Shown: in pieces, positions 1 through 15,815 of the stretch
Layout of the letters: each line of letters opens with the position of its first letter
Position numbering within the stretch: position 1 is the first letter of the stretch
Virus record (IMG/VR): IMGVR_UViG_3300044638_006229
Coordinates: 1 to 44,189 of that record
Source of the DNA: a virus
Strand: one strand, 5' to 3'
DNA: 44,189 nt
Translations under genes and position numbers: made by a program
The notes under the pieces: generated by a model
The model's database searches: none
What the model was told of the DNA's origin: nothing
What the model saw: the letters and a program-made list of their open reading frames with translations, nothing else

Positions 1-3000
1 AAGCAATACTACCTGGACTATTGATGTTTGTACAATCTAGACCTTGTGTATTACCAGCGGTAATGTCACTGCCTACATTGATTGGAATTGCTGGCCATTG
101 ACCTTCAAATCCACCTTGGAAACCTACGATAAACTTACGTAGTTTAACGTATGTAGATTCATTTACAGCATCATATGTACTTGGGATACTACCACTCAAT
201 GTTGGTGATAGTAGTGAACCAGTACTTACATATGTACCTTGAGCATAGAATTTACTGTTTGTAGTACCCCAAACTTTATCTTCTAGATCGAAGTCAATGT
301 TTGTACCATTGCTATCTGAAGCACCATAATATGGTAGTGGCTTGAAGTATTGTTTAGTGTTATTTTCTACACCAACACCAAATGAAGATGTTGGATATAG
401 TGCTTGGATTTCAGTATCAGTTCCTGGAACACTACCGAATACTGTACCAGATGGATACTTACCAGGTCCGAGACCATAGATACTTGCTTTACTGTATTGT
501 ACAGCAGGTACATAGTTGCTTGCGGTACTATCAATTGGAGTACTATATGATTCAAATCCGTATGGTACGCAACTTACTGGGTAAGAAACGTCACTGGCTT
601 CGATTCTGATATACTTACTCAAATTATTGAAATCGCCGAATTGAATTAACTTACCAGCATAAGTGATATATGCGTATCTGTTACCAATTCTACGAGCAAC
701 ATAATTTGCGGATTCTGGATCCAAATTCAAGTTTTGGAAGATTTCCAAATACTTTGGCTTCTTATCAGTATCGCTATAAGCACGTACTACTAGTGTGAAA
801 CTACCCCATTCGCTGCCTGGAACTGTTCCTGCCAACTTAACATTACTAATTTCAATCTTGAACTTAGTGTTGCTCAATGTACCGTCACTCAAAGTGTGAA
901 CCTTGAACAACTGGAACTTGGTTGGAGAAGCAGCTACATCAGCGCTACCTTTAAATGGAGCAATCTTTTGACTGTAGATCCAAGGAGTAGAAGCATTGGT
1001 GATACTGAATTGACTATCACCGTTATTCAAATCAGTGCTATATTGATCAACAAACTTTAGAGGTTCGCCAACAATTGAACTTCCTGATAGGTTACTTGTA
1101 CCAACTTGTAGTCTCCAACCATAAGCGCTGGTCTTTTCAGCTACGAACTTCTTGATGCTATCTTCGAATAGTACGTAGTTGTAAGCCGCTTCAACTTTTT
1201 GACCAGCAATTTGTTTGTTAGGATTACCAACAGTTGGGTCTACACCAAATACATCTTTGATGTAATTATTGTCGTTTTCATTTAAACTGAAGTCGTAGTA
1301 ACCATATGTACCAGCACTTGTACCACCGGCTGGATTTGTGTAACTATACTTTAATGCCAAGTTGTAAACATTTTCATTAGGATTGATTACACCCTTATAT
1401 GGGAATGTACTACTTGTTAGTTGAGTCAATGTTGTGGTATTGAAACCAAATACTTGATAATCACTGGTAAATTGTGATGAAGCATTTTGAGTGTTTGCCA
1501 ATACTGACAAGATCATCTTTTGACGACCTGTTAATACTGGATTACATTGATCTGCGCTTGGATTATCTTGATTTGTGAATCCGCCATTATATTTACCAAA
1601 GGAACCACTTACCACACCTCTTACTTGTAGACCAGCTACACAAGTTCCAACACCACGTAGTGAATGGAAACTACCACTTTGAAGTGTCAATGGTGTGCCT
1701 GCTTGAACATTGAAGTTGGTTAGGTTATAAGCGATAGTACCATTGAAGTAAGATGAACTTACTAGATCAACAGTTGTTGTGCTTTCATCAAAAGCGGTAG
1801 CAATTGCTGTTTCGGCATCAATATTTGAACCTTGTAGACTTGAAGTTAACAAGAAGAATTTAGTACCGACTGGTTTTGCATTTCCGTTGGCAAGAGTTGA
1901 AGTACTGAATTTACGTACCAATAATCCAGAAGAAACTGAACCGATATCAACTGTTTTATTGGCGTACAAGATACTACCACTCAACTTACCTACACCATCA
2001 ACGTCATCTGCGGTTACGCCACTTGTTAGAGTTGCGGATCCAAATTTAACATTCAATGACCCACTGATTGTCATTGTTGAAATGTCAATACGTTGTACCA
2101 ATTGAATTGAAGAACTCAATCCAGCGCCACTCAAACTTGCAGTTGCAAATGATAATGATGAATTTGCGATGTATTTAGCAAAAACCAAACCAAATGTATT
2201 TGGTGCGGTAAATGAAGCGGTTAAGTAATTATTGTTTGAACTATCAAATGTTAGTTTGAACTTACTTGAACCACCACCTCCGACGGTAACACTACCACTT
2301 ATACGTGATTTATCAAAATCAAATGCGGCCAAAGAATGATCTACTGAAGATCCCGCTTTTGCAACTTTACCACCTCTAGCAACAACAGAGCTGCTAAACA
2401 ATTCATAATGTCTTGTGGAAACAACTTTGTATACTTTACCCAAACTGGATGAAGTTGCCAAAGAAGCTGAAAGTGAATTAATTCCAACAACACTTCCAAC
2501 TGTAGCTAAGAAAGAAGCAATTTCAGCGGTTGTTGCTCTTGTAAATTCAGCTGATCCAGTGATTAAAGCTCCGGATGAACCCTTGATTGCAGCTGCGCCG
2601 CTAATATTAAGTTGTGTACTAGTTTGTTGATATATTACATTTGATGTATAATCTGTGGTATCAACATACATAAATGAAGCTGTGGTGATAGCACCTTTAT
2701 CAGCATTTCTGTTCCAGATACCTGGTTGAGCATATACAATCAATGGATTCTTTTGCCAGTAACCAGTTAGACCACCTACACGAACAACGGTAACGATACC
2801 TTGTTGTAGTAGATATTCTTTGGCTGTGTATGGTCCATAATACACACCATCAGCGACACCGAATCTTGTTTCCAAGTCAGCTACGTCAGTTATTGTATTT
2901 GGAAAAAACGCTGGTCCATCAGCGAATGGAGCTATAATTGCTCCTCCAATGTTTGCTACTCCTTGAGCCAGACCGGAGAGGTCGTTTTCACGTGTGAATA

Positions 3001-3058
3001 CACCTGGGCTTACTATATTTTGTGTTGGGGCGAATCTACCGCCTTCTTGTATTGGCAT
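1..3058 (-). CDS. Tail sheath protein, gp18-like (3' end outside window)
   Basis: This is the contractile tail sheath subunit, which polymerises around the tail tube and contracts during DNA injection. I read the frame directly from the minus strand; it is open from the ATG at 3058 to the window edge, giving 1019 residues with no stop. The N-terminus carries the family signature SPGVFTRENDLSG, followed by the GGAIIAPFADGPAF and DLETRFG segments and a VVRVGG strand, as in gp18-type sheaths. The start is supported by a clear AAAGGA ribosome site about 10 bases upstream, one of the few good ones here. T4 gp18 is about 660 residues, so this protein is much longer; residues about 170-600 are Ser/Thr-rich and look like extra surface domains. 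A TATTTATA box lies 33 bases upstream. Family assignment is strong; the C-terminal tube-binding part is not visible. Confidence 0.93.
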   Translation of the reverse strand, partial: MPIQEGGRFAPTQNIVSPGVFTRENDLSGLAQGVANIGGAIIAPFADGPAFFPNTITDVADLETRFGVADGVYYGPYTAKEYLLQQGIVTVVRVGGLTGYWQKNPLIVYAQPGIWNRNADKGAITTASFMYVDTTDYTSNVIYQQTSTQLNISGAAAIKGSSGALITGSAEFTRATTAEIASFLATVGSVVGINSLSASLATSSSLGKVYKVVSTRHYELFSSSVVARGGKVAKAGSSVDHSLAAFDFDKSRISGSVTVGGGGSSKFKLTFDSSNNNYLTASFTAPNTFGLVFAKYIANSSLSFATASLSGAGLSSSIQLVQRIDISTMTISGSLNVKFGSATLTSGVTADDVDGVGKLSGSILYANKTVDIGSVSSGLLVRKFSTSTLANGNAKPVGTKFFLLTSSLQGSNIDAETAIATAFDESTTTVDLVSSSYFNGTIAYNLTNFNVQAGTPLTLQSGSFHSLRGVGTCVAGLQVRGVVSGSFGKYNGGFTNQDNPSADQCNPVLTGRQKMILSVLANTQNASSQFTSDYQVFGFNTTTLTQLTSSTFPYKGVINPNENVYNLALKYSYTNPAGGTSAGTYGYYDFSLNENDNNYIKDVFGVDPTVGNPNKQIAGQKVEAAYNYVLFEDSIKKFVAEKTSAYGWRLQVGTSNLSGSSIVGEPLKFVDQYSTDLNNGDSQFSITNASTPWIYSQKIAPFKGSADVAASPTKFQLFKVHTLSDGTLSNTKFKIEISNVKLAGTVPGSEWGSFTLVVRAYSDTDKKPKYLEIFQNLNLDPESANYVARRIGNRYAYITYAGKLIQFGDFNNLSKYIRIEASDVSYPVSCVPYGFESYSTPIDSTASNYVPAVQYSKASIYGLGPGKYPSGTVFGSVPGTDTEIQALYPTSSFGVGVENNTKQYFKPLPYYGASDSNGTNIDFDLEDKVWGTTNSKFYAQGTYVSTGSLLSPTLSGSIPSTYDAVNESTYVKLRKFIVGFQGGFEGQWPAIPINVGSDITAGNTQGLDCTNINSPGSIA

Positions 3059-3137: not shown

Positions 3138-5282
3138 TTAAATTTTTTGTTCTATTAATAGTTGATCTATGGTATCCATAACCATTTTTGGAGTTATTTG
3201 TTTGGTACATTCAAACTCTTCTCTCTTATCAGATTTTGGACACCACTTCCAATTTCCCTTGTCAAATAGCGAATCATTCCAACATCCTGTACACACCGAG
3301 TGGTTTTGTACTCTATAAGGAGTATCAAATTCAGTATATGGATATGAGAACCCGCTAATTAATACTACTGGCTTTTTAACTGCCCAAGCTAACCAAGACA
3401 ATCCTGATGGCAAACCTATAAAAAACTCACTGTGATATATTTGATTCATACGGTCAACCAGTGGTTTATCTCCTGTAAAATCTAAAGCATTGGAAGGCAT
3501 ACTATTCATATAGTCTGATCCATTTCCAAATGTTTTGTGTTTATCTATGCATATTACTTCAAATCCCTTTGATTTAATATATTCAACAACACGTTCCCAT
3601 CCGCCTTTATTGTTCCAATATTTGGCTTGACACGTACTTTGTGTTGCAATTGTGACATATCTCTTTTTGAGAGGTCTTTCTTTGATTTTAAAGTCAAGTA
3701 ATGGTAATTCTGGTTCATATGGCAATCCCAAATAATCACTTGCTATTTTTTGTAAAGGTTGTTTTCTGGGATCTGTTTTACATCTATCATTATTGGGTCC
3801 ATTTTCGTCTACATAATATCCCAACTTATAAGTTGCAAATACATCTGAAATAGGTTTGTTATTGTGAACAAACTTAATTGAAGGGTATTTGTTTTCAAAA
3901 ATATTTTTCAAAGGTAACTTGACATAAAGATCACATTCGTGTTTTTTTCTAAACTGTTCAATTATAGGCATCCAAGCCAATTGATCGCCTAAAGAGTAAC
4001 TTTCATATTCAATTACTACTTTCTTATTCTTTAAATTTAACTTATATGTTTCGACCAATTCATTAGTCTTATTATCTTTAATGTGAATTTCATAGGGAAT
4101 GTAATATGTAAAATTACAACTTCCCCACCAATTATGTTTTAAATCAGTTTCATATTTAATACTATTATCGTCACCATTATAGAATGTTATGTGGAAACTT
4201 TGATCTACGTCTACTGGGTTATCCACTTCAATCTTGGCATTATCATTGAATGAATATTTAAACACCGCATTTGTTTTAATACTCTTTTCATTCTTTTTAA
4301 GATTTTCATAAACATCAATATGTTTGATAGCAAACAATCTTTCAGTATATTGATCATATAAATCGATTAATTGGTCTACTCGGTTGGAATAGGAATTTTC
4401 CTTAGCACATTCCAAAGCTTTGGTTTGATATCGACTATAATCAGATGTGATTTGTTGTATTGCGGATTTTATTTGTTCTACATTTCGTTCAACAACAACC
4501 ATACCTTTATATGATTTTTCCTCAAACGTACCTACCACAGGTAAACCACAACTCATTGCTTCTAAAAGCGTTAGATTTGGATGTCCTGCTTCCAATTCAG
4601 ATGGGTGTATGAATATAGAATGGTCATTATATAAATCGATCAACGATTCTTCATTTAAATCAAATACTTTTGTCAATTTATCATACTGATTTAATTCGTC
4701 ATCTAATATATCAAAGAACTTTTTATTATTAGATGGTCCAGCAATAGTAATTGGATACCCCAATTCTTTAGCCGCTTTAATCGCATATGTGAATCCTTTT
4801 CTGTCATATGATTGATTATTGGCATAACCATTATTTGCAACACACAACAGTTTATTTACTGGAATTTTGTTATTTTTATGTTTAAACACATCGGTATTTA
4901 CCGCGTGGGAAAAATAACGTAATTTTTTACTTCCGAAATAATCAACCAAATATTTGGCAGGACAAGTAGATATTACACTATTTTCAATTGCTTGTAAATT
5001 CTCTTTATATACAGATGAATCTTTGCCATACAAATAAGCGTGGTGATCGTGTAAACTAAAGATATAAGGTATGCCTCTTTTATGACATTCATTTGCCAGA
5101 TTTGCTACGTGTATATGTACGATTATATCGTCTGAATATTTAATTTCATTCAAATACTTTATCTGACATTCTAATCCCTTTTTGTTTAACAGTTGATGGT
5201 AATCCCAAATGATTTTTTCAACTGCACCCCATCCATTAGGCGGAATAGGCAATAACCCTAAATTAACTTGTATAATTTTCAT
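3138..5282 (-). CDS. Two-domain glycosyltransferase: GT4 domain plus TibC-like heptosyltransferase domain
   Basis: This is a predicted bifunctional sugar transferase. Residues 1 to about 310 form a GT4 (GT-B fold) domain, with the acidic donor-binding loop EAGHPNLTLLEAMSCGLPVV near residue 235. After a linker, residues about 420-714 resemble the GT9-related autotransporter heptosyltransferases (TibC/Aah): a YSLGDQLAWMPIIEQF start, a GLPSGLSWLAWAV donor-site segment, and a C-terminal four-cysteine finger with cysteines at 664, 667, 681 and 692. In TibC such a finger binds iron, and the enzyme puts heptose on serines of adhesins. The ATG overlaps the stop of the upstream glycosyltransferase by four bases (ATGA), so the two are probably co-translated, and the sheath gene follows. 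The domain calls are confident; sugar and acceptor are unknown. It could modify virion proteins or host surface glycans. Confidence 0.85.
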   Translation of the reverse strand: MKIIQVNLGLLPIPPNGWGAVEKIIWDYHQLLNKKGLECQIKYLNEIKYSDDIIVHIHVANLANECHKRGIPYIFSLHDHHAYLYGKDSSVYKENLQAIENSVISTCPAKYLVDYFGSKKLRYFSHAVNTDVFKHKNNKIPVNKLLCVANNGYANNQSYDRKGFTYAIKAAKELGYPITIAGPSNNKKFFDILDDELNQYDKLTKVFDLNEESLIDLYNDHSIFIHPSELEAGHPNLTLLEAMSCGLPVVGTFEEKSYKGMVVVERNVEQIKSAIQQITSDYSRYQTKALECAKENSYSNRVDQLIDLYDQYTERLFAIKHIDVYENLKKNEKSIKTNAVFKYSFNDNAKIEVDNPVDVDQSFHITFYNGDDNSIKYETDLKHNWWGSCNFTYYIPYEIHIKDNKTNELVETYKLNLKNKKVVIEYESYSLGDQLAWMPIIEQFRKKHECDLYVKLPLKNIFENKYPSIKFVHNNKPISDVFATYKLGYYVDENGPNNDRCKTDPRKQPLQKIASDYLGLPYEPELPLLDFKIKERPLKKRYVTIATQSTCQAKYWNNKGGWERVVEYIKSKGFEVICIDKHKTFGNGSDYMNSMPSNALDFTGDKPLVDRMNQIYHSEFFIGLPSGLSWLAWAVKKPVVLISGFSYPYTEFDTPYRVQNHSVCTGCWNDSLFDKGNWKWCPKSDKREEFECTKQITPKMVMDTIDQLLIEQKI

Positions 5283-7291
5283 TGTGTAATATCAATAGAA
5301 CCGTTAATATCTATGTCTTCTAATCTTCTAAATGACTTTTTATAACTTCTCAATAAAATTTTATTTTGATCATATAGATTATTTTCAATTTCATAGAAAT
5401 TATTGTTTTCAAACTCGTTTGCTAAATAAAAACAAACCTTTTCTGACACAGTGTACGAATAATTGTTAACTACCTCTCCGTTCTTTTTTATTATTATCTC
5501 ATTTATACGACCATCTAATTTATTATTGATGTATGTTAATACTCCAAACTTATTTATATTCTTCATCCTTAGAACCGATAAATATTCTACCATTGAGAAT
5601 AAATTATTTTTACTATTGCTTAAATAAGATTCTTCGTTGTTCGTGTAATCTATATGAAGATCGTTCTTATTAGATATTAGTTTATTATAATAGAATTGTT
5701 CCAATCCATTTGATATATTTTTCTTCGTAACAAATTCCATATATTCTTCTGGGGTATAGTAATCAAAATTATCCAAGAAAAATTGAGTATTAATCCCGTG
5801 AAATACAGTTTTGAATGTGTCACCTTCTAACGCTTTATCATAAAAGAAAAATGCTTTCTTATTAATTAGAATTTCATCTACATCGTATAACTTTGAAAAA
5901 TCTGATTCTGAAATGATCATATCATAATTGAAGCAAATTGCATTTTTGTATCCGATTTTATTTGCCAATGATATGCCATTGTAATAGTTTAATAATACAG
6001 CGAGACCGTGATAATTATCACAATCAGAAGGTGGAAAAAATAAATTGATCTTGGTATTATCTGTGTTGTATGTCCATCTATTATAGAAATTATGTTTTAA
6101 AATTGGATTGTTTGAGTCATATACATAATGATCAGCCGCTTTTTGCAAATCAACACTAGCAGGATAATGAGATGACAACAACACTTTATAACCAGCTTTT
6201 TTAGCTTGATTAATTGATTCTAAAGTTGTGTCTTCTACAGCTTTAAAATTGGGATGTGTTGATATGATAACCACCGTGTTTTTATTTGTGGATTTCTTTA
6301 TATTAACAATCTCTATTTCAGAATCTGAAATCAACCCCAATTGATTCTTTATGAGTTTAACATTACGATTAAAATTGGTTTCGTCTAGATACTTGATATT
6401 TTCAAATACCTTGTATCTATCAAGGTAAACAGGCAAATTGTACAATAGAGATGGTATATTATAAGATATAGCCTCTTTAATTACAATAGGTGCTGTCTCT
6501 TTATCAGTTGCGTGACCTCTGCTAGTGAACAAAAACAAATCCATACAACTGTAGAAGTTTTCTACATCTTTGCGTTCACCCCAAACTTTTACATTACTCG
6601 GTAAATTATCCAACAGAGGTTGCCAATAATTTTTGAAGTTATCAGCCATATTACCCAGACAATGAAATTGAACATTTTCTTTTTCCATTGCACGAGCATA
6701 TTCTATAAATTCTTTTTGGTTTTTTCTAGGAGTAAACAATCCAACGTGTAATACGTGTTTTTTACTTTCATCCAATCCCAAAAATTTCAATCCTTCAGAT
6801 CTATCTTTTCTACACTTCACAGAAATTGGATATTCAATAACTGTAGTATTTATGCCTAAAGATTCGACGTTTTGTTTCTGATAATTACTTACGAATGTAA
6901 ATTTATCTGGAAAAACACGCTTTCTTCTTGGATCAAAACTACTATCGTGCGAAGTTTCCACAATTAGATATTCTCGGTCTTTATTATAGAGTTTAGTAGC
7001 CAAGTTAACATCCATAAAGTATTCTGGCATTTCCTCCAAATGAATAATGTCAGGTTTTATATTGTCAACTAACTTTAGTAACTCAAATTTATTTGATGAT
7101 AATGTGTAAAACCTCTTACCGCAAATTTTCTGAAGCTGCTTTCTTTGAACAACTAAAACTCCGCCAGTAATATCATCATATTCTACACAATATATTTCAT
7201 AATCATTAATTAACGATTGTATTTTCTTCAATAAAAACTGAGGTAGTCCTCCAGTAGAAAGATGTGGAGCTATAAACAATATTTTTTTCAT
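5279..7291 (-). CDS. Two-domain glycosyltransferase (GT4 plus second transferase-like domain)
   Basis: The first about 320 residues form a GT4-type glycosyltransferase. The N-terminal strand reads KILFIAPHLSTGG, the second Rossmann half opens with HVGLFTPRKNQ, and an ExxxxxxxE motif (ETAPIVIKE) sits near residue 270. From about residue 335 a second domain begins with VVIISTHPNF and continues through CDNYHGLAVLLNYYNGISLA and AICFNYDMIIS; it looks like a GT-A-type domain, but I cannot name its family. The C-terminal 120 residues are Asn/Tyr-rich without a recognisable motif. The gene lies three bases after the FkbM gene and overlaps the next glycosyltransferase by four bases, so the three form one translation-coupled cassette. 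No ribosome site is obvious before the ATG. Donor and acceptor sugars cannot be deduced. Confidence 0.82.
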   Translation of the reverse strand: MKKILFIAPHLSTGGLPQFLLKKIQSLINDYEIYCVEYDDITGGVLVVQRKQLQKICGKRFYTLSSNKFELLKLVDNIKPDIIHLEEMPEYFMDVNLATKLYNKDREYLIVETSHDSSFDPRRKRVFPDKFTFVSNYQKQNVESLGINTTVIEYPISVKCRKDRSEGLKFLGLDESKKHVLHVGLFTPRKNQKEFIEYARAMEKENVQFHCLGNMADNFKNYWQPLLDNLPSNVKVWGERKDVENFYSCMDLFLFTSRGHATDKETAPIVIKEAISYNIPSLLYNLPVYLDRYKVFENIKYLDETNFNRNVKLIKNQLGLISDSEIEIVNIKKSTNKNTVVIISTHPNFKAVEDTTLESINQAKKAGYKVLLSSHYPASVDLQKAADHYVYDSNNPILKHNFYNRWTYNTDNTKINLFFPPSDCDNYHGLAVLLNYYNGISLANKIGYKNAICFNYDMIISESDFSKLYDVDEILINKKAFFFYDKALEGDTFKTVFHGINTQFFLDNFDYYTPEEYMEFVTKKNISNGLEQFYYNKLISNKNDLHIDYTNNEESYLSNSKNNLFSMVEYLSVLRMKNINKFGVLTYINNKLDGRINEIIIKKNGEVVNNYSYTVSEKVCFYLANEFENNNFYEIENNLYDQNKILLRSYKKSFRRLEDIDINGSIDITQ

Positions 7292-7294
7292 AAT

Positions 7295-8254
7295 TTACTT
7301 ATTTAAGTATACGGTGTTCATATGTGATAGATTATGATCCAAGGCATTATCTTTGTGACTTAACTTGTATCCTAAATTCTTAAATCTATCAATTATTTTA
7401 AGTAGATTTACGCCGTCATTGCAATGAAATTCAAAGAATATACTTCTAACATTTTTGAAGAAATTGTCACTTGTATTTTCAAAAAACTCATATTCAGCTC
7501 CTTCTATATCAATTTTTAAATAAGTTGGCAATTCCAAATTATTATCTATTACAAACTTTTCTAAATTAATAGCATCAACTTCAAATTCACCTTCGTTTCT
7601 AATTCTGGAAGCAACTGTAGATTCTGTGGTACCAAATCTTACTTTTTTAAATTCACTTGAAATCGCATTATTAAACACTTTTGTGTTTTTACCATATCTG
7701 TTCAAATTATCGTTAAGATACTGTGAGAGTTCTGGATGTGGTTCAAATGCATATATTTGTTTGATATCAAAATTAGAACACGCAATAGAAAACGCACCAA
7801 TATTAGCTCCCAGATCATAAACAACATCTCCATCTTTGATATTAAAATTTGATGTAAAATAATCATCGTAGAAAAATGTATGGTAAGATGGATAGGTCGT
7901 ATCACCCTGTTTAGATTTTAAATCCAAACATCTAAATTTTTTAGTACCGTGATAATTTTTACTGAATAATAATGTATTGTCTACATCGTGTATTTCTATG
8001 CAAATGCCAGGATGATTTTTATTTAAAATTTCTTTTATATAAAAAATGTTATAATTATAGGTCCACATATCATGCCCCACTGTACAGTGGTGATACATAA
8101 TGTGTGAAATAAGATTGGAATCTAAACTTCGTATTGTTATTATAAACTCATAATTAACCGATGAATCATTGATGGTTTTAAACACACCTTCATCCGTAAT
8201 AATAATTGTTAATTTTCCAAACTTTTCCAAATAGATATCGTCGATAATAGGCAT
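7295..8254 (-). CDS. FkbM-family methyltransferase
   Basis: This is a SAM-dependent methyltransferase of the FkbM type, a family that commonly O-methylates sugars in glycan pathways. The SAM-binding motif I is VVYDLGANIGAFS (residues 144-156), followed by the acidic post-II segment YAFEPHPE and the family hallmark LKIDIEGAEYEFF. The first 120 residues are an extra N-terminal domain with no recognisable family. The gene follows the nuclease fusion by one base and precedes two glycosyltransferases, so it most likely caps or modifies the glycan they build. An AAGGT stretch lies about 14 bases before the ATG, rather far for a ribosome site. The family call is strong; the substrate is inferred from context only. 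Confidence 0.87.
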   Translation of the reverse strand: MPIIDDIYLEKFGKLTIIITDEGVFKTINDSSVNYEFIITIRSLDSNLISHIMYHHCTVGHDMWTYNYNIFYIKEILNKNHPGICIEIHDVDNTLLFSKNYHGTKKFRCLDLKSKQGDTTYPSYHTFFYDDYFTSNFNIKDGDVVYDLGANIGAFSIACSNFDIKQIYAFEPHPELSQYLNDNLNRYGKNTKVFNNAISSEFKKVRFGTTESTVASRIRNEGEFEVDAINLEKFVIDNNLELPTYLKIDIEGAEYEFFENTSDNFFKNVRSIFFEFHCNDGVNLLKIIDRFKNLGYKLSHKDNALDHNLSHMNTVYLNK

Positions 8255-8255
8255 A

Positions 8256-11200
8256 TTAAATATATACTACCTTACTAAAACCATTCTCTTTTTTTATTTC
8301 CACTTGATTATCAACCATATCACGCATTTGATCCAGATGACTGATTACCCAGATAAAATCAAATTGATGTTTCAAATAATTAAACAAAGCACCCATTTGA
8401 CCCAAATGATCACTATCAGCACAACCAAATCCTTCATCAATACAAATAATATTTGGTCTTGGTAGATTACTAATATTAATCAACGAAACTCTGATAGCAA
8501 GTCCACTTACGAATTTTTCCATTCCACTTGCCATTTCAAGTGGCCAACGTTTGTCTTCGTAAACGATATTGGTCATAATGTTTTTTCCATCAGTTTGAAG
8601 AGTAACTGTAAAATCTACTAACTGTTGAAGAATATTATTAACTTCCTTTTCAATCTCAGGAAGAGTCTTGGTTATAATTTCATATGGAATTCCATCACGG
8701 CTAACCACATTTGTATAATGTTTGTAAGCTTCATAACTCGACTCTAATTCTTTTACCTTTTGCAATTGTTCAGTAACAGTTTTATACTGAACTTCTAACT
8801 TTCCTTTTTCAGTTAATGAGGAAAAAAGCTTGGAATTAATAGATTTAATATTAACGTCGATAGATTTAATCAAATCTTTCTGAGTGTTGATGTCAGACAT
8901 CAACTTGTTATTATTCTCAATAATATCTTTATTTGTATAAAAAGTTGAAATGTTATCTGTTATAGTCTTAAGTTTGGTTTGAATCTTAATAAGATCATTT
9001 TCCAACTTAAGAATTGTATTTGAAATAACACTCTTGCTTTTTTCAAAAGCAACTTTATCGTTATTTACTTTTTGACAACGTTTGAATTTTGTTTCAATGT
9101 CGCCATAACTCTCCAAAGATGACTTTATTGTATTATACTCATCTACAATAACCTTGCTTTTGATTTTATCATTCTCCAATTCAACTTTGACTTTTATTGC
9201 ATCTTTTACGAATACATTGTTTACGCAATATGAACAGTTAGGATCATATTTGTGATCTTCCAACTTCTTCAATTTGTCCATTTTATTTTTCACAACAAGC
9301 TTAAGATTATTTAATTCATTGGTCTTGTTATCAAAATTTTGTTTGACAACTTTATAAAGATCATAATCACGATCAATATTTTCGCAGTCTGATATGGATA
9401 AAGACAGATTGGTAATATTTGTTTCTACATCAATTAGTTTATCTTTTTGAAGTTTAATATTAAGATTGGTTTCATTAATCTGACCTTCAAGTTCAATTTT
9501 GTTACTTTCCAATTTAACAATATCAAAATCAAAACTTACAGTTTTAGTAATTTTATTGGATAATTCTAATAAGAGATTGTTATAAGAATCCTTTAACAAT
9601 TCTTGATTTTTTACTTCTTCGTTAAACTCTTGAATCTTGGAATTAGTATAGTCTATACTGCCAGATACAGTTTCCAACTCTTGAATAAGTTGATCTTTAC
9701 TTATATTCTTTAATAAAGTATTTGTTTCTTTAAACTTATCATTTGCGATAGTATATAATTGATCAAATACATCCAATCCCATAAACTGACACAATAAATC
9801 TTTTCTCTCAGTCTGTCCAAGATCAATAAAAGACCCAGCTTTACTGTTTTGTACACTTAAAACAGTAAGAATAAAATCTTCATATGTACCAACGTAGTCG
9901 CGAATAATATCGTTTGTGCTTCTACGAGCTTCTCCGTTCAATGGAACTTCTTTGTCATTTTCTTTTTTGTAGAATTTGACTTCAACTTTGACATTGCCTT
10001 TCTTGTCTGCTTTACCTTCACGCTCAATAAAATAATCAACTCCATTTACCTCAAAATTAAACTTACAACGAAAGCTCATTTTTTGAGTATTAAGCACGTG
10101 TGATGCTTTGTAACCCTTACTGAACTTATCAAAAACACAGAATGCAAGCGCATCCATAATGCTTGATTTACCACTAGCATTTGGTGCAAAAAGTCCGATA
10201 GTGCCGTTTAGTTTAGCAAAATCTATTATATTGCCTTCGCCATAACTAAACATATTGTCGAATTCAAATTTCTTTGGTTTCCAACGAATATTCTTTGGAG
10301 CTTTATCTTTTGGTATTTCTTTATTAATGGTCTTATTTAGATCCTTGACCATTTCTATTAGATTCTTATCTACATTTTTTGATAACAATGTGTCTTCTAC
10401 CAATTTGTTTTGGTAGTCAACATCAAAAATGTTATGTACATCAAACACTTTTCCAGAGTTCAAAATTGTATCTTTTGATACATCGTCGGCACGAACATAG
10501 GTGGTTTCGATTAACGTAGATTTGGTTTTGATGTCATTTAAAATCTCCTTTACTTGTGAAGGAATGGACTCACGACAGATAACACGTAGTGTGGATTTCT
10601 TTGGGATATTAGAAATATCCGTAATCAACTGACCCTTGTCAACTTCCACCGTATAATACCCATATTCATTTACTAGTTCGTAGTGTTTGAATAATTTACG
10701 TTTCAAGTCCCACATAATGAAACCGTGGCCTTTAAGCTCTTCACCGTGGTTTTGTTGAATCATCGATCCCGCATATACAACAACTGGCAAAGATTCATTG
10801 TCATCATATTCTTGTAGAATTTGATGTTTGTGAATATCACCAAGCATAGCAATGTGATGTCCATCAAAGGTTTCATTGGTTACAGATCGACTACTAACAG
10901 TGTACCCAACATCAGTAACAGCATTATATACTGGTCCGTGAAACAAAGCAATGTGATGGTCTGTTTCATCACGATATTTCGATGGGATATTTTCGTACTT
11001 AATGTATTTTTCAGGAACATCCCAATCAAAAACACTGAAGTTATTAAACAAAATATTTTCATATCTATAAACATCTGTATTTCTGAGATAAAATAGATTA
11101 GGGTGATTCAAAGCATCCACAATTGGTGTAATACAATCTAATCTAGATTTATTAGCCAATGTAGCATCGTGATTGCCAGCCGTTAAAATAACAGGAACTC

Positions 11201-11447
11201 TATCTGCGCAATTTTTTAGAAAATCACTTCCAATCTTAACACATTCAGGACTCAAATCGGATTTATTATGAAACAAATCGCCGGCTATAACCAAGATAGC
11301 ATCTAGTGTTTTTGCTTTATCAAGTGCTTTATAAAGCTTTTCAAAAACCAAAGTATATTCGTCATGACGTTTTGTTAAACGAATATGAATATCCGCAATA
11401 TGCACCACCGAATTAATTTTTTTATCTGTATTTTTTAATACAATCAT
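8256..11447 (-). CDS. Single-chain Mre11-Rad50 (SbcD-SbcC; gp47-gp46) recombination nuclease
   Basis: Both halves of the Mre11/Rad50 complex lie in one 1063-residue chain. Residues 1 to about 340 are the Mre11/gp47 metallophosphoesterase, with motifs DIH (19-21), GDLFH (56-60), GNHD (91-94), H170 and GDIHKH (203-208). Residues about 390-1063 are the Rad50/gp46 ATPase: Walker A GLFAPNASGKSS (418-429), long coiled coils with a CSYC zinc hook near 738, the ABC signature ASGMEKF near 970 and Walker B NIICIDEGFG near 997. T4 encodes these as separate genes 47 and 46. The complex resects DNA ends for recombination-dependent replication. The linker (about 340-390) is Lys/Asn-rich, and no start/stop remnant is visible there. 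The gene overlaps the primase gene by four bases. All key residues of both active sites are present. Confidence 0.95.
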   Translation of the reverse strand: MIVLKNTDKKINSVVHIADIHIRLTKRHDEYTLVFEKLYKALDKAKTLDAILVIAGDLFHNKSDLSPECVKIGSDFLKNCADRVPVILTAGNHDATLANKSRLDCITPIVDALNHPNLFYLRNTDVYRYENILFNNFSVFDWDVPEKYIKYENIPSKYRDETDHHIALFHGPVYNAVTDVGYTVSSRSVTNETFDGHHIAMLGDIHKHQILQEYDDNESLPVVVYAGSMIQQNHGEELKGHGFIMWDLKRKLFKHYELVNEYGYYTVEVDKGQLITDISNIPKKSTLRVICRESIPSQVKEILNDIKTKSTLIETTYVRADDVSKDTILNSGKVFDVHNIFDVDYQNKLVEDTLLSKNVDKNLIEMVKDLNKTINKEIPKDKAPKNIRWKPKKFEFDNMFSYGEGNIIDFAKLNGTIGLFAPNASGKSSIMDALAFCVFDKFSKGYKASHVLNTQKMSFRCKFNFEVNGVDYFIEREGKADKKGNVKVEVKFYKKENDKEVPLNGEARRSTNDIIRDYVGTYEDFILTVLSVQNSKAGSFIDLGQTERKDLLCQFMGLDVFDQLYTIANDKFKETNTLLKNISKDQLIQELETVSGSIDYTNSKIQEFNEEVKNQELLKDSYNNLLLELSNKITKTVSFDFDIVKLESNKIELEGQINETNLNIKLQKDKLIDVETNITNLSLSISDCENIDRDYDLYKVVKQNFDNKTNELNNLKLVVKNKMDKLKKLEDHKYDPNCSYCVNNVFVKDAIKVKVELENDKIKSKVIVDEYNTIKSSLESYGDIETKFKRCQKVNNDKVAFEKSKSVISNTILKLENDLIKIQTKLKTITDNISTFYTNKDIIENNNKLMSDINTQKDLIKSIDVNIKSINSKLFSSLTEKGKLEVQYKTVTEQLQKVKELESSYEAYKHYTNVVSRDGIPYEIITKTLPEIEKEVNNILQQLVDFTVTLQTDGKNIMTNIVYEDKRWPLEMASGMEKFVSGLAIRVSLINISNLPRPNIICIDEGFGCADSDHLGQMGALFNYLKHQFDFIWVISHLDQMRDMVDNQVEIKKENGFSKVVYI

Positions 11448-13238: not shown

Positions 13239-15815
13239 TTAAGTGTCCCATTTAACAGAAATATTTATTGGAATTTCACCAGTATTTTTAATTGGTTGTG
13301 CCAATTTAGCAACCGCAACCAAATCACATCCACTATACAATCCCACAGTTGTTATGTACGGTGCCAAATAAGATCCAGTTGGATCTATAGAAGAACTATA
13401 TTGATACTTGAAAAAGTCTTGTTTTACGTAATTTTTAATTGACTTGCCTGTTTGATTATCTAAAAATCTAATAATGTCGTCGTAATTATTACGATTGCTT
13501 AGTGTATTCAAAAAAGACTTGTAGTTTGTGAAATTCAACTTTTCGATGAAATATTTCCACATCATTTTACCATCGTAAATGTCTACTTTTCCATCGTTAT
13601 CAACGTCTAGATTTTTTTCAGCCAATATGTTTTTCAATTCAGGAGTTAACAAATTGGTATTATAGTTTAAATATGATGATGTATAAAATCCAAAAATATT
13701 TTGTTCAACGTCATTTGAAATCATATTTAAATACCATTTTTCAGAGCCTGGTACCACGTTTTTATAGTTTATATATCTTAAGATTATATCCAAATTTTCA
13801 AAGTTAAAATTGCTCTTATTAATTACACAATAATTTATAAGCGATGAAGTTGTAGCAGTTGGATTTGTTGATATATTAAACTCTCCTGGCAATATAGTAC
13901 ACACATATTGTTTTTCGTAAGTGGTTATGAGTGTCTTATAATCCATATACAACGATGAATAATCTGGATCTATAGGATCTCTTGTCAACAAATTCAAAAC
14001 GCTACCTGTATTGTTAATTACCAAACTATTATTGTTATAAAATATATTGCCTACAGGATAATTTGTTTTCAAATCTAAGCTGTCATAAATATAAGCTTTA
14101 CCAACGATGTCTGAATATGAATCAGATTCCATTTGTAGTGCAATTTTTGTAACGACACTGCCACTTCCATATACTGTATCCTCTATTTGAAAATATACAA
14201 CATCGGATGTTTCAGTGCAATTTTCTGGGCTGAATGAAGATGTATTTACATAACTAGGATCATCATAACTTCCAGACTCAGTTATTAAAGGAACACTTAA
14301 ATACAAATCTTCATTTAGTGGAATAGGAGACCCCACCACTAAATTAGGATCTGATAAAGCAACGGAATATCCAAAAGCACTAAATGGTTTATTATACTCT
14401 TTTCTTTTAGCAATTGGATCCGTAGTAATTTGAGTTACGATTGAATTACTTACATTATAATACAAACATTGTCCACAATAACTTGATTCACCATAATCAT
14501 TTACATCGTAAAACTTATCATAGTATTTGATTGAGCTAGATATATAAAGAGAACTGAAAGGAAAATACGGTTTGGGAGATCCAATCAATACTTTATTATT
14601 GTGTGTAGAAACTGAATAACCCATCATATTATCTTTGAAGGTTATTTCATCACCATAAATCTTTTTAATAAACAAATATTGATTTGATCCTGTTGGACAC
14701 AAACCATTTTCGTAAATATAAGTCGCACCTCTTTGTCTTAAAACATTAGATCCTGAATATTCGTAGTATAAAAGATCATTTGGTGATCCGATTGCTAATA
14801 CGTTTTTATGTAAAGATACAGAATATCCAAATCTGTTATTTTTCTGTGCAGCAGATAAACTTCCTGAAGGATATAAATCAAATTCAAATCCTTCCAACTT
14901 TAAGTATTCAGATCCTGTTATGTTTTGAAACCTTTGTGAAATTCTCCATCCACCTGATCCAGATGTGAATAAAAACACTTTACTAGCTGACACTTGATTA
15001 CATCCGACTACCAATTTATCTTCAGCATATTTGTCTATACAAACACTAAATCCAAATGAAGATTGATATGGATCAGATACAACACTACTGCTTAGTTTTT
15101 GTACCAAATTATAACTGTTGTTTACATTCTTAAAAACATAAACACATCCTCGGCCGTTATTATAACCTGGAGCACCAACCGCTAAATAATTATTTGATAT
15201 ACTGACTGATTTACCAAACTGTATATTGCTTGACGATGTTAAATAAGCGATAGGCGTTGAACTTATTTCGTATGTACTTGTAGATTCTTTTGTATATTCT
15301 GTGGATTTTGACTGGATGCTTCCACTTTCATATACATAGTTGGGATCTATTTCGTATATGTTTACTTGGTTTTGAGTAAAAAAGTTTCTGTTGTCTATAC
15401 TCTGTGTAAAAGAAACATCGCTTGCTGCTAGAAAATAATCACATACATCAAGTGCTTCGCCGTATTTGCTTTGATAAACAAACTTTGTGGAGTTTTCAAT
15501 TGTTAAATAACTACAAGATGCATCTGTATTTGGCAAACTACCACTATTAGCAATTAAAGAACTTGTATTAACTGTACTGCTACTTTGTTCGGTGTAATAT
15601 GGTGTTAGTAAATTTTCATTTTCATTAAACAAAGTTTTAATTACTTCATAATTTGATTGAAATTGATTTTTACGAACCAAAAATATTTGTCCTCTACGAG
15701 AAAATCCTTCCGCATATTGCCAATTTTTAGTTGGTGGATTTCCTATTGCTATTATGTTACCATTCGTAGCAACAGAGGTACCATATCTTTCGTTATATAT
15801 GTTAATTAAACTCAT
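13239..15815 (-). CDS. Virion protein with seven FG-GAP-like beta-propeller repeats and an EF-hand-like calcium loop
   Basis: The N-terminal 510 residues hold seven copies of a pattern [F/Y/M]GxSV...(6-10)...L[A/V]xGSP, starting near residues 11, 118, 200, 254, 329, 398 and 481. The clearest are FGKSVSISNNYLAVGAPG, FGYSVSLHKNVLAIGSPN and FGYSVALSDPNLVVGSPI. This is the integrin/FG-GAP beta-propeller repeat, and seven copies make a closed propeller. Near residue 735 lies DVDNDGKVDIYD, a dockerin/EF-hand-type calcium loop. The last 45 residues (YITTVGLY...AKLAQPI) match the C-terminus of the 372-residue protein encoded at 16552-17670, a likely shared virion-docking motif. The gene sits among baseplate genes. 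A tail-tip adhesin is the best guess; propeller architecture is well supported, the ligand is unknown. Confidence 0.78.
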   Translation of the reverse strand: MSLINIYNERYGTSVATNGNIIAIGNPPTKNWQYAEGFSRRGQIFLVRKNQFQSNYEVIKTLFNENENLLTPYYTEQSSSTVNTSSLIANSGSLPNTDASCSYLTIENSTKFVYQSKYGEALDVCDYFLAASDVSFTQSIDNRNFFTQNQVNIYEIDPNYVYESGSIQSKSTEYTKESTSTYEISSTPIAYLTSSSNIQFGKSVSISNNYLAVGAPGYNNGRGCVYVFKNVNNSYNLVQKLSSSVVSDPYQSSFGFSVCIDKYAEDKLVVGCNQVSASKVFLFTSGSGGWRISQRFQNITGSEYLKLEGFEFDLYPSGSLSAAQKNNRFGYSVSLHKNVLAIGSPNDLLYYEYSGSNVLRQRGATYIYENGLCPTGSNQYLFIKKIYGDEITFKDNMMGYSVSTHNNKVLIGSPKPYFPFSSLYISSSIKYYDKFYDVNDYGESSYCGQCLYYNVSNSIVTQITTDPIAKRKEYNKPFSAFGYSVALSDPNLVVGSPIPLNEDLYLSVPLITESGSYDDPSYVNTSSFSPENCTETSDVVYFQIEDTVYGSGSVVTKIALQMESDSYSDIVGKAYIYDSLDLKTNYPVGNIFYNNNSLVINNTGSVLNLLTRDPIDPDYSSLYMDYKTLITTYEKQYVCTILPGEFNISTNPTATTSSLINYCVINKSNFNFENLDIILRYINYKNVVPGSEKWYLNMISNDVEQNIFGFYTSSYLNYNTNLLTPELKNILAEKNLDVDNDGKVDIYDGKMMWKYFIEKLNFTNYKSFLNTLSNRNNYDDIIRFLDNQTGKSIKNYVKQDFFKYQYSSSIDPTGSYLAPYITTVGLYSGCDLVAVAKLAQPIKNTGEIPINISVKWDT

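Follow-up and report, generated by a model that had tools for sequence, protein, structure and literature searches.

The locus described here raises the question of which enzyme a long gene beside a phage tail sheath encodes and what this enzyme modifies. The locus lies in IMGVR_UViG_3300044638_006229, a virus of bacteria known from sequence alone, and the window, which is the whole stretch of DNA that was analysed, covers positions 1-44,189 of that record (44,189 nucleotides). Positions 3138-5282 form one long ORF on the minus strand, with an ATG start and a product of 714 aa; the plus strand there is stop-rich. The features of the locus are as follows.

3138..5282, minus strand: GT4-TibC ORF, 714 aa, a GT4 domain fused to a TibC-family O-heptosyltransferase (predicted)
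4278..5282, minus strand: GT4 domain, residues 1-335; PF00534 at 160-283 and a conserved E231-x9-E241 stretch
3162..4274, minus strand: TibC-family domain, residues 337-707 (TIGR04414, PDB match, AF2 model, VIA-align)
4041..4265, minus strand: TibC-type N-terminal beta-barrel, about residues 340-414 (modelled strands; TibC alignment from model residue 3)
3984..3986, minus strand: D433, corresponding to the TibC catalytic base Asp-110 (alignment to TibC; codon checked)
3621..3635, minus strand: T550 and K554, corresponding to TibC Thr-226 and Lys-230, which bind the beta-phosphate (alignment to TibC; codons checked)
3393..3452, minus strand: R611, P625 and W630, corresponding to TibC Arg-286, Pro-300 and Trp-305 (alignment to TibC; codons checked)
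3207..3293, minus strand: iron-finger segment, Cys664/667/681/692, corresponding to TibC Cys-339/342/358/370 (alignment to TibC; codons checked)
5279..7291, minus strand: cassette gene 2, GT4-containing protein, 670 aa; PF00534 at 169-290, 4-bp overlap with the start of GT4-TibC
7295..8254, minus strand: cassette gene 1, FkbM-family methyltransferase, 319 aa (family profile searches)
8256..11447, minus strand: left cassette border, SbcCD- or gp46/47-like fused nuclease-ATPase (profile searches, PHROGs)
2..3058, minus strand: right cassette border, tail sheath, 1019 aa up to the window edge (a full-length relative in L013 matches PF04984, E 2.9e-13)

The edge-cut sheath piece in the window had no PHROGs match. 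In the left border gene (8256-11447), the SbcD- and SbcC-like (T4 gp47/gp46-like) parts are contained within a single 1063-aa protein.

The two enzyme domains and their conserved residues

The TIGR04414 profile matched residues 337-707 with 343.4 bits, the curated cut-off being 200, and the match covered model positions 8-373 of 374. This profile represents the autotransporter strand-loop-strand O-heptosyltransferase family (Aah/TibC), the studied members of which are protein O-glycosyltransferases (PMC4358343). The best PDB relative by sequence was TibC itself (4rap, E 2.6e-75, residues 343-708), with the 4rb4 form second, and other solved structures had E values of 0.013 or worse among the matches listed. 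The AF2 model of the domain alone, based on 57 sequences, showed a pLDDT of 95.6 and a pTM of 0.92. VIA-align revealed TibC as the top match to this model, with a Z-score of 44.7 and an rmsd of 1.9 Å over 366 residues (model residues 3-379); the runners-up were a GT9 protein (Z 21.2), WaaF (19.3) and WaaC (18.6), the alignments of which begin at model residue 78 or 85, past the barrel. The identity to TibC in the structural alignments was 36-38%. Much of the iron finger was below a pLDDT of 50 in the first AF2 model, which used 22 sequences, and it reached about 86-92 in the 57-sequence domain model. Structure comparison of the full-length model also placed TibC first, followed by the GT4 enzymes BshA/MshA; with a pTM of 0.52, that model is not trusted for how its halves sit relative to each other.

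By sequence and modelled fold, the C-terminal half is thus firmly assigned to the TibC family. An earlier note on this DNA had proposed both a search with the Aah/TibC profile and a structural comparison with TibC, and both results agree with its TibC-like reading while contradicting an ordinary LPS heptosyltransferase or an unrelated fold. Its domain limits (residues 420-714) needed correction, as the TibC part starts at about residue 337 when the beta-barrel is included. In the N-terminal half, PF00534 matched residues 160-283 (E 7.7e-13, 48.8 bits against a cut-off of 26.4), and profile and fold identify a GT4 domain, a predicted glycosyltransferase; the joining of a GT4 domain to a TibC-family domain, as that note had described it, therefore holds.

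The key residues of TibC are Asp-110, Thr-226, Lys-230, Arg-286, Trp-305, Pro-300 and Cys-339/342/358/370, with Arg-286 assigned to the adenine, Pro-300 to D,D-heptose selectivity and Trp-305 to the heptose O4 (PMC4358343). Upon alignment with TibC, the window protein was found to keep D433, T550, K554, R611, P625 and W630. The four-cysteine pattern C-x2-C-x13-C-x10-C that had been noted earlier occurs only once in the 714-aa protein, at Cys664/667/681/692, and random placement of its 15 cysteines yielded the pattern in 21 of 200,000 trials. All four cysteines align with the TibC iron ligands, which suggests a finger of the same type.

We compared these positions across 159 viral loci with a TibC domain, including the window and phage-collection loci, of which 72 remained after sequences at least 90% identical were dropped. 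Equivalents of D110, K230, W305 and all four cysteines were present in 72/72 viral domains. The T226 position held threonine in 48 and serine in 24, arginine was kept at the R286 position in 52/72, and the P300 position was glycine in 54, serine in 12, proline in 5 and alanine in 1. The aspartate, lysine and tryptophan were each found in all of 80 domains taken from assemblies of bacteria and archaea, and each cysteine in 79 of them. The invariance of the base and the sugar-site residues argues that the phage enzyme is under catalytic constraint. Since the window protein keeps both the arginine and the proline, ADP-heptose is its likely donor; in other phages these two positions are less constant, and a different donor may be used.

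The thumb tip of TibC, Phe-265/Val-266, is needed for dodecamer ring assembly and activity (PMC4358343). In the window protein, Phe-Val is replaced by polar residues, and the thumb region of the domain model consists of short strands. The tip was also found to be variable in the bacterial relatives, so its loss says little and gives no ground for reading a loss of the dodecamer from the changed tip.

Two other readings of the C-terminal half were weighed against these data. An LPS heptosyltransferase of the ordinary GT9 type, acquired from the host, would share the ADP-heptose GT-B fold, as the Z-scores of WaaF and WaaC reflect, and the general PF01075 Glyco_transf_9 model did match, just above its cut-off (25 bits, cut-off 22). 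However, the LPS heptosyltransferase profiles stayed below their cut-offs (RfaQ, 22 bits against 467; heptosyltransferase I, 19 against 185; heptosyltransferase II, 12 against 135), in contrast to the TIGR04414 score; the fold match to TibC, the conserved iron-finger cysteines and the alignment of the barrel to TibC likewise speak against capture of a GT9 enzyme, which we regard as contradicted and very improbable. A reading in which the TibC half serves as a scaffold without catalysis and the GT4 domain is the sole active enzyme is also very improbable: the unconserved thumb tip would suit a scaffold, but the tip varies in bacteria too, and the base and two sugar-site residues do not vary in any of the 72 viral sequences.

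Partner genes and the accessory cassette

At least 300 residues precede the TibC domain in 40 of the 72 viral loci, while the domain stands alone in 26 and is cut or intermediate in 6. The extension is window-like, at 332-347 residues, in 22 of the 40 extended proteins; longer extensions are partly classified. Bacterial relatives are nearly all stand-alone TibC proteins. In 18/72 viral loci, GT4 is encoded by a gene of its own upstream of a stand-alone TibC gene; the two are direct neighbours in 17, and a single ORF separates them in L229. These separate genes encode 204-320 aa, some being cut by contig ends, and are 42-53% identical to the GT4 half of the window protein. Fusion in one lineage and adjacency of genes in another is a classical sign of two enzymes that act on one product. 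Because the same GT4 is fused here and a separate neighbour elsewhere, the fusion links two partner enzymes. A second linkage of TibC with a partner enzyme emerges from FkbM, which forms a C-terminal domain of the GT4-TibC protein in L042, L060, L041 and L052 (by Pfam for L042 and by BLAST for all four; L041 and L052 are near-copies of L042 by the 90% cut) and a separate gene, two genes upstream of GT4-TibC, in the window. The two-step glycan synthesis on a protein that the earlier note had suggested is strengthened by the separate neighbouring GT4 and TibC genes, while family and neighbourhood are what suggest its protein acceptor.

Further candidate domain relations were examined. The TibC barrel, the N-terminal part of FkbM and the C-terminal end of the 670-aa protein resembled one another by eye, but a shared beta-domain was rejected, as hhalign gave the three pairs probabilities of 7.7, 2.9 and 0.5%. 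More than 150 residues precede the domain in 5 of the 105 TibC-matching ORFs from bacterial loci, and none of these was accepted as a bacterial fusion: L129, L122 and L143 fall on the viral side of the tree, with phage-locus neighbours for L129 and L122 and one weak match for L143, and L145 and L149 were judged by eye to have over-extended starts. In the record of Microcystis phage Mel-JY01 (PP395634), which is listed with a host, the gene at L077:4747-8430, with a product of 1226 aa and annotated as 'methyltransferase FkbM', contains GT4 and TibC domains and had no FkbM match in the Pfam or NCBIfam scans at E 0.001, and its annotation may be wrong.

In the window, the FkbM, GT4 and GT4-TibC genes are tightly packed, with a 3-bp gap followed by a 4-bp overlap, and lie between the SbcCD-like gene (8256-11447) and the tail sheath, which starts at 3058. 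L255 and L257 carry the window gene order on both sides, with homologous genes (FG-GAP protein, small gene, RuvC-like, primase, SbcCD, sheath), and lack the three cassette genes; the spacing from SbcCD to sheath is 113 and 109 bp in L255 and L257, respectively, compared with 5,197 bp in the window. The three genes thus form a removable accessory cassette.

Other gene sets were found in related loci. Upstream of a related sheath, L260 (2441-7908) and L261 contain a GT4 protein, a short DegT-like protein, a GT2, a GT4-TibC and a second TibC-like protein of 281 aa; the families were named for L260, and the left border lies outside these loci. By gene content, this set suggests an exchangeable glycan locus. 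L042 has an added hexapeptide-transferase gene. In L071, L072 and L074, the TibC gene is immediately followed by genes for a cupin, an adenylyltransferase and a kinase; the last two are HldE-like in L072 by gene order, and the L071 pair (within 9349-10851) gave rfaE_dom_II (100 bits) and rfaE_dom_I (122 bits) as best NCBIfam matches, below the cut-offs of 181.5 and 345. After the HldE-like genes of these three loci, a (G-S/T-S/T)n collagen-like gene lies on the opposite strand. Among 32 viral records, HldE-domain-II-like genes were present in 4, domain-I-like genes in 4 and GmhA in 1; they include an HldE-domain-I-like match of 306 bits in LR756501 and, above its cut-off, the GmhA match of 251.5 bits in LR756504. 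At E 0.001, neither an HldE- nor a GmhA-like gene was found in the 24 records with window-like fusions (G001-G024; fragments, many of them near-identical), which would leave these phages dependent on ADP-heptose from the host.

The genomic setting agreed with the virion-gene surroundings that had been described earlier: the cassette adjoins the sheath, and at least one sheath, tail tube, baseplate, portal, terminase or Ig/Hoc-like gene was found in 46/72 viral loci. The remaining 26 contained none of the counted structural genes, and since many loci are short fragments, such neighbourhood counts are lower bounds. The sheath lies at most three genes downstream of the TibC gene in 25/72 loci. 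A GT4 protein of the 5279-7291 type occurs in 33/72, at most three genes upstream in 28 (neighbour gene clusters were named from one member each). Other lineages differ, and several have a downstream gene that is non-structural or on the opposite strand.

Candidate acceptors and the proposed function

The studied bacterial acceptors are autotransporters with strand-loop-strand repeats, TIGR04415 (PMC4358343). We found these repeats in 20 of 30 bacterial genomes that carry a TibC relative; a search of 30 viral records, with many fragments and near-copies among them, gave none, and none was found in the window. They occurred in 0/12 cellular genomes on the viral side of the tree compared with 20/27 on the bacterial side (of the 30 bacterial genomes, 3 are among the 12 viral-side rows); the tree rows are related, so the Fisher value of 1e-5 for repeats by tree side overstates the evidence. 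The absence of the repeats on the phage side suggests that the phage branch probably acts on a different acceptor, and the modification of serines of adhesins, which the earlier note had named for the enzyme group, does not appear to extend to it.

The neighbouring sheath was considered as an acceptor. The window-type sheath has about 1,300 aa in near relatives (L013:10225-14136), with a long insert of Ser/Thr content about 0.2 that separates the N-terminal part from the conserved sheath domain, and sheaths of other related phages have about 740-830 aa. At least 80 sheath loci were available; in 46 of them the sheath was complete and no less than 3 kb of upstream sequence was present. A TibC gene was present, among the matches listed, in 10/16 of these with a sheath of at least 1000 aa and in 0/30 with a shorter one, a split that follows kinship. 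The Ser/Thr content of the insert was about equal with and without the cassette, and in L207 a TibC gene lies beside a 565-aa sheath without the insert; the insert as sole acceptor is thus not supported. The sheath is a candidate acceptor by position, and the composition test is not in its favour. Collagen-like G-S/T/A repeat proteins, as putative acceptors, were found in 15/72 viral loci, which counts as an association, and none was seen in the window. The FG-GAP repeat protein of 858 aa at 13239-15815 is a possible appendage and another candidate acceptor.

We propose that GT4-TibC is the core of a phage protein O-glycosylation cassette; on balance, this is probable, with one or more virion structural proteins as the most likely acceptor because the cassette is an accessory insertion beside late tail genes. 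Our confidence is higher for an active TibC-type protein glycosyltransferase than for the virion acceptor. Against the reading stand the similar Ser/Thr content of the sheath insert with and without the cassette, the insert-free sheath of L207, the missing HldE- and GmhA-like matches in G001-G024, the variation at the R286 and P300 positions in other phages, the 26 loci in which none of the counted structural genes was seen, and the thumb tip that is not kept. The TibC domain would transfer heptose, most simply from ADP-D-glycero-D-manno-heptose, to Ser/Thr hydroxyls of the protein, and the GT4 domain on the same polypeptide would add the next sugar. The 670-aa GT4 protein may then extend the glycan and the FkbM enzyme may cap it by O-methylation. 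The benefit could be masking or shielding of the virion or tuning of adsorption.

Two rival targets were considered. The cassette might instead act on the infected host by glycosylating its proteins or surface glycans, for example as a barrier to superinfection or to change a receptor; phage glycosyltransferases that alter the host serotype are known (PMC12619734), and the virion acceptor is itself deduced from gene position. However, the cassette is co-oriented with and beside tail or packaging genes in several lineages, the studied TibC family member acts on proteins (PMC4358343), and neither a flippase nor a polymerase was found among the neighbours named by family searches, which makes a host target unlikely. 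Glycosylation of phage DNA as a base hypermodification would be in keeping with the frequent action of phage glycosyltransferases on DNA (PMC12619734), but the studied TibC members are protein O-glycosyltransferases (PMC4358343) and the cassette sits at the sheath, though its opposite border is a gp46/47-like recombination gene; we consider this reading improbable.

Distribution, known relatives and significance

Scanning IMG/VR with the whole protein revealed 97 relatives in 100 matched stretches, of which 80 in 75 loci were kept, and the domain alignment gave at least 584 relatives in at least 600 stretches. Of 50,697 annotated phage records, 7 matched, with the TibC domain covered in 4 (LR756501 and LR756503, 735,411 bases each; LR756504, 636,363; and Microcystis phage Mel-JY01) and the GT4 part only in 3. 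For the window protein, PHROGs returned a single glycosyltransferase family at residues 1-45; 8 further viral TibC domains had no match or, in two cases, E 0.005-0.009 to families of unknown function. As no convincing PHROGs family exists for the domain, phage annotation relying on PHROGs will miss it.

The tree separated 68 bacterial rows from 72 viral and 12 cellular-assembly rows with an SH-aLRT of 100 (midpoint drawing). Three of these 12 (L102, L129 and L122) have phage-locus-like neighbours; they are contigs binned into Winogradskyella, Chloroflexi and Pacearchaeota MAGs, and the gene order in L102 is GT4, GT4, TibC, sheath, tube. The other cellular rows on the viral side, mostly without phage-like neighbours, may be true bacterial genes.

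Compared with the bacterial enzymes TibC and AAH (BAHT; TIGR04414, 4rap, 4rb4, PMC4358343), the phage domain has the same beta-barrel, GT-B core, four-cysteine finger and catalytic and sugar-binding residues. In contrast to them, it is joined to a GT4 domain or accompanied by a GT4 gene and lies among phage structural genes, strand-loop-strand repeats are absent from the phage records searched, and it lies on the opposite side of the tree with a different thumb tip. The fold was also found in two BFVD entries, A0A6J5SVC1 ('Glycosyltransferase Aah/TibC', uncultured Caudovirales phage, 924 aa, TMq 0.91) and A0A7S9XE01 (Virus NIOZ-UU157, 985 aa, TMq 0.87), which we know by their database names only; as one is named Aah/TibC, the TibC fold in a phage sequence is not itself new. 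Two papers that name NIOZ-UU157 (PMC13037465, PMC10537231) contain, in the passages searched, no discussion of glycosyltransferases, and the TibC mention in the viral domain database paper PMC7316859 is, in the passage retrieved, the software name Tibco. Among the matches listed from the open-licence literature, we found no study of phage TibC enzymes, the GT4 pairing or the cassette. The enzyme family is therefore known, and what is new is the GT4 pairing, the genomic setting and, putatively, the acceptor class.

To our knowledge, there are reports of virion protein glycosylation in few phages, and the enzyme responsible for the attachment has often gone unidentified. In mycobacteriophages, capsid and tail tube are glycosylated by phage glycosyltransferases, with shielding proposed (Freeman et al. 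2023 in PMC12619734). The proposed cassette would be alike in placing glycans on phage structural proteins and in a possible shielding role.

More tentatively, and as a possibility that we would put at well short of even, many T4-type environmental phages may carry an exchangeable 'virion O-antigen' locus, in which TibC heptose priming and swappable genes would give serotype-like coats. The TibC enzyme would first place heptose on structural proteins such as the sheath or appendages of collagen-like or Ig-like type, and genes drawn from a swappable set (GT4, GT2, FkbM, hexapeptide acetyltransferase, DegT and HldE-like) would then build different capped glycans. The fused two-enzyme glycosyltransferase may also find use in making glycoproteins in bacteria. 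In these loci, a family of protein O-glycosyltransferases whose structure is understood is spread over phage lineages and forms part of a discrete cassette that some related phages naturally lack. It thus becomes possible to test directly if phages attach glycans to their own particles, at which sites and to what end.
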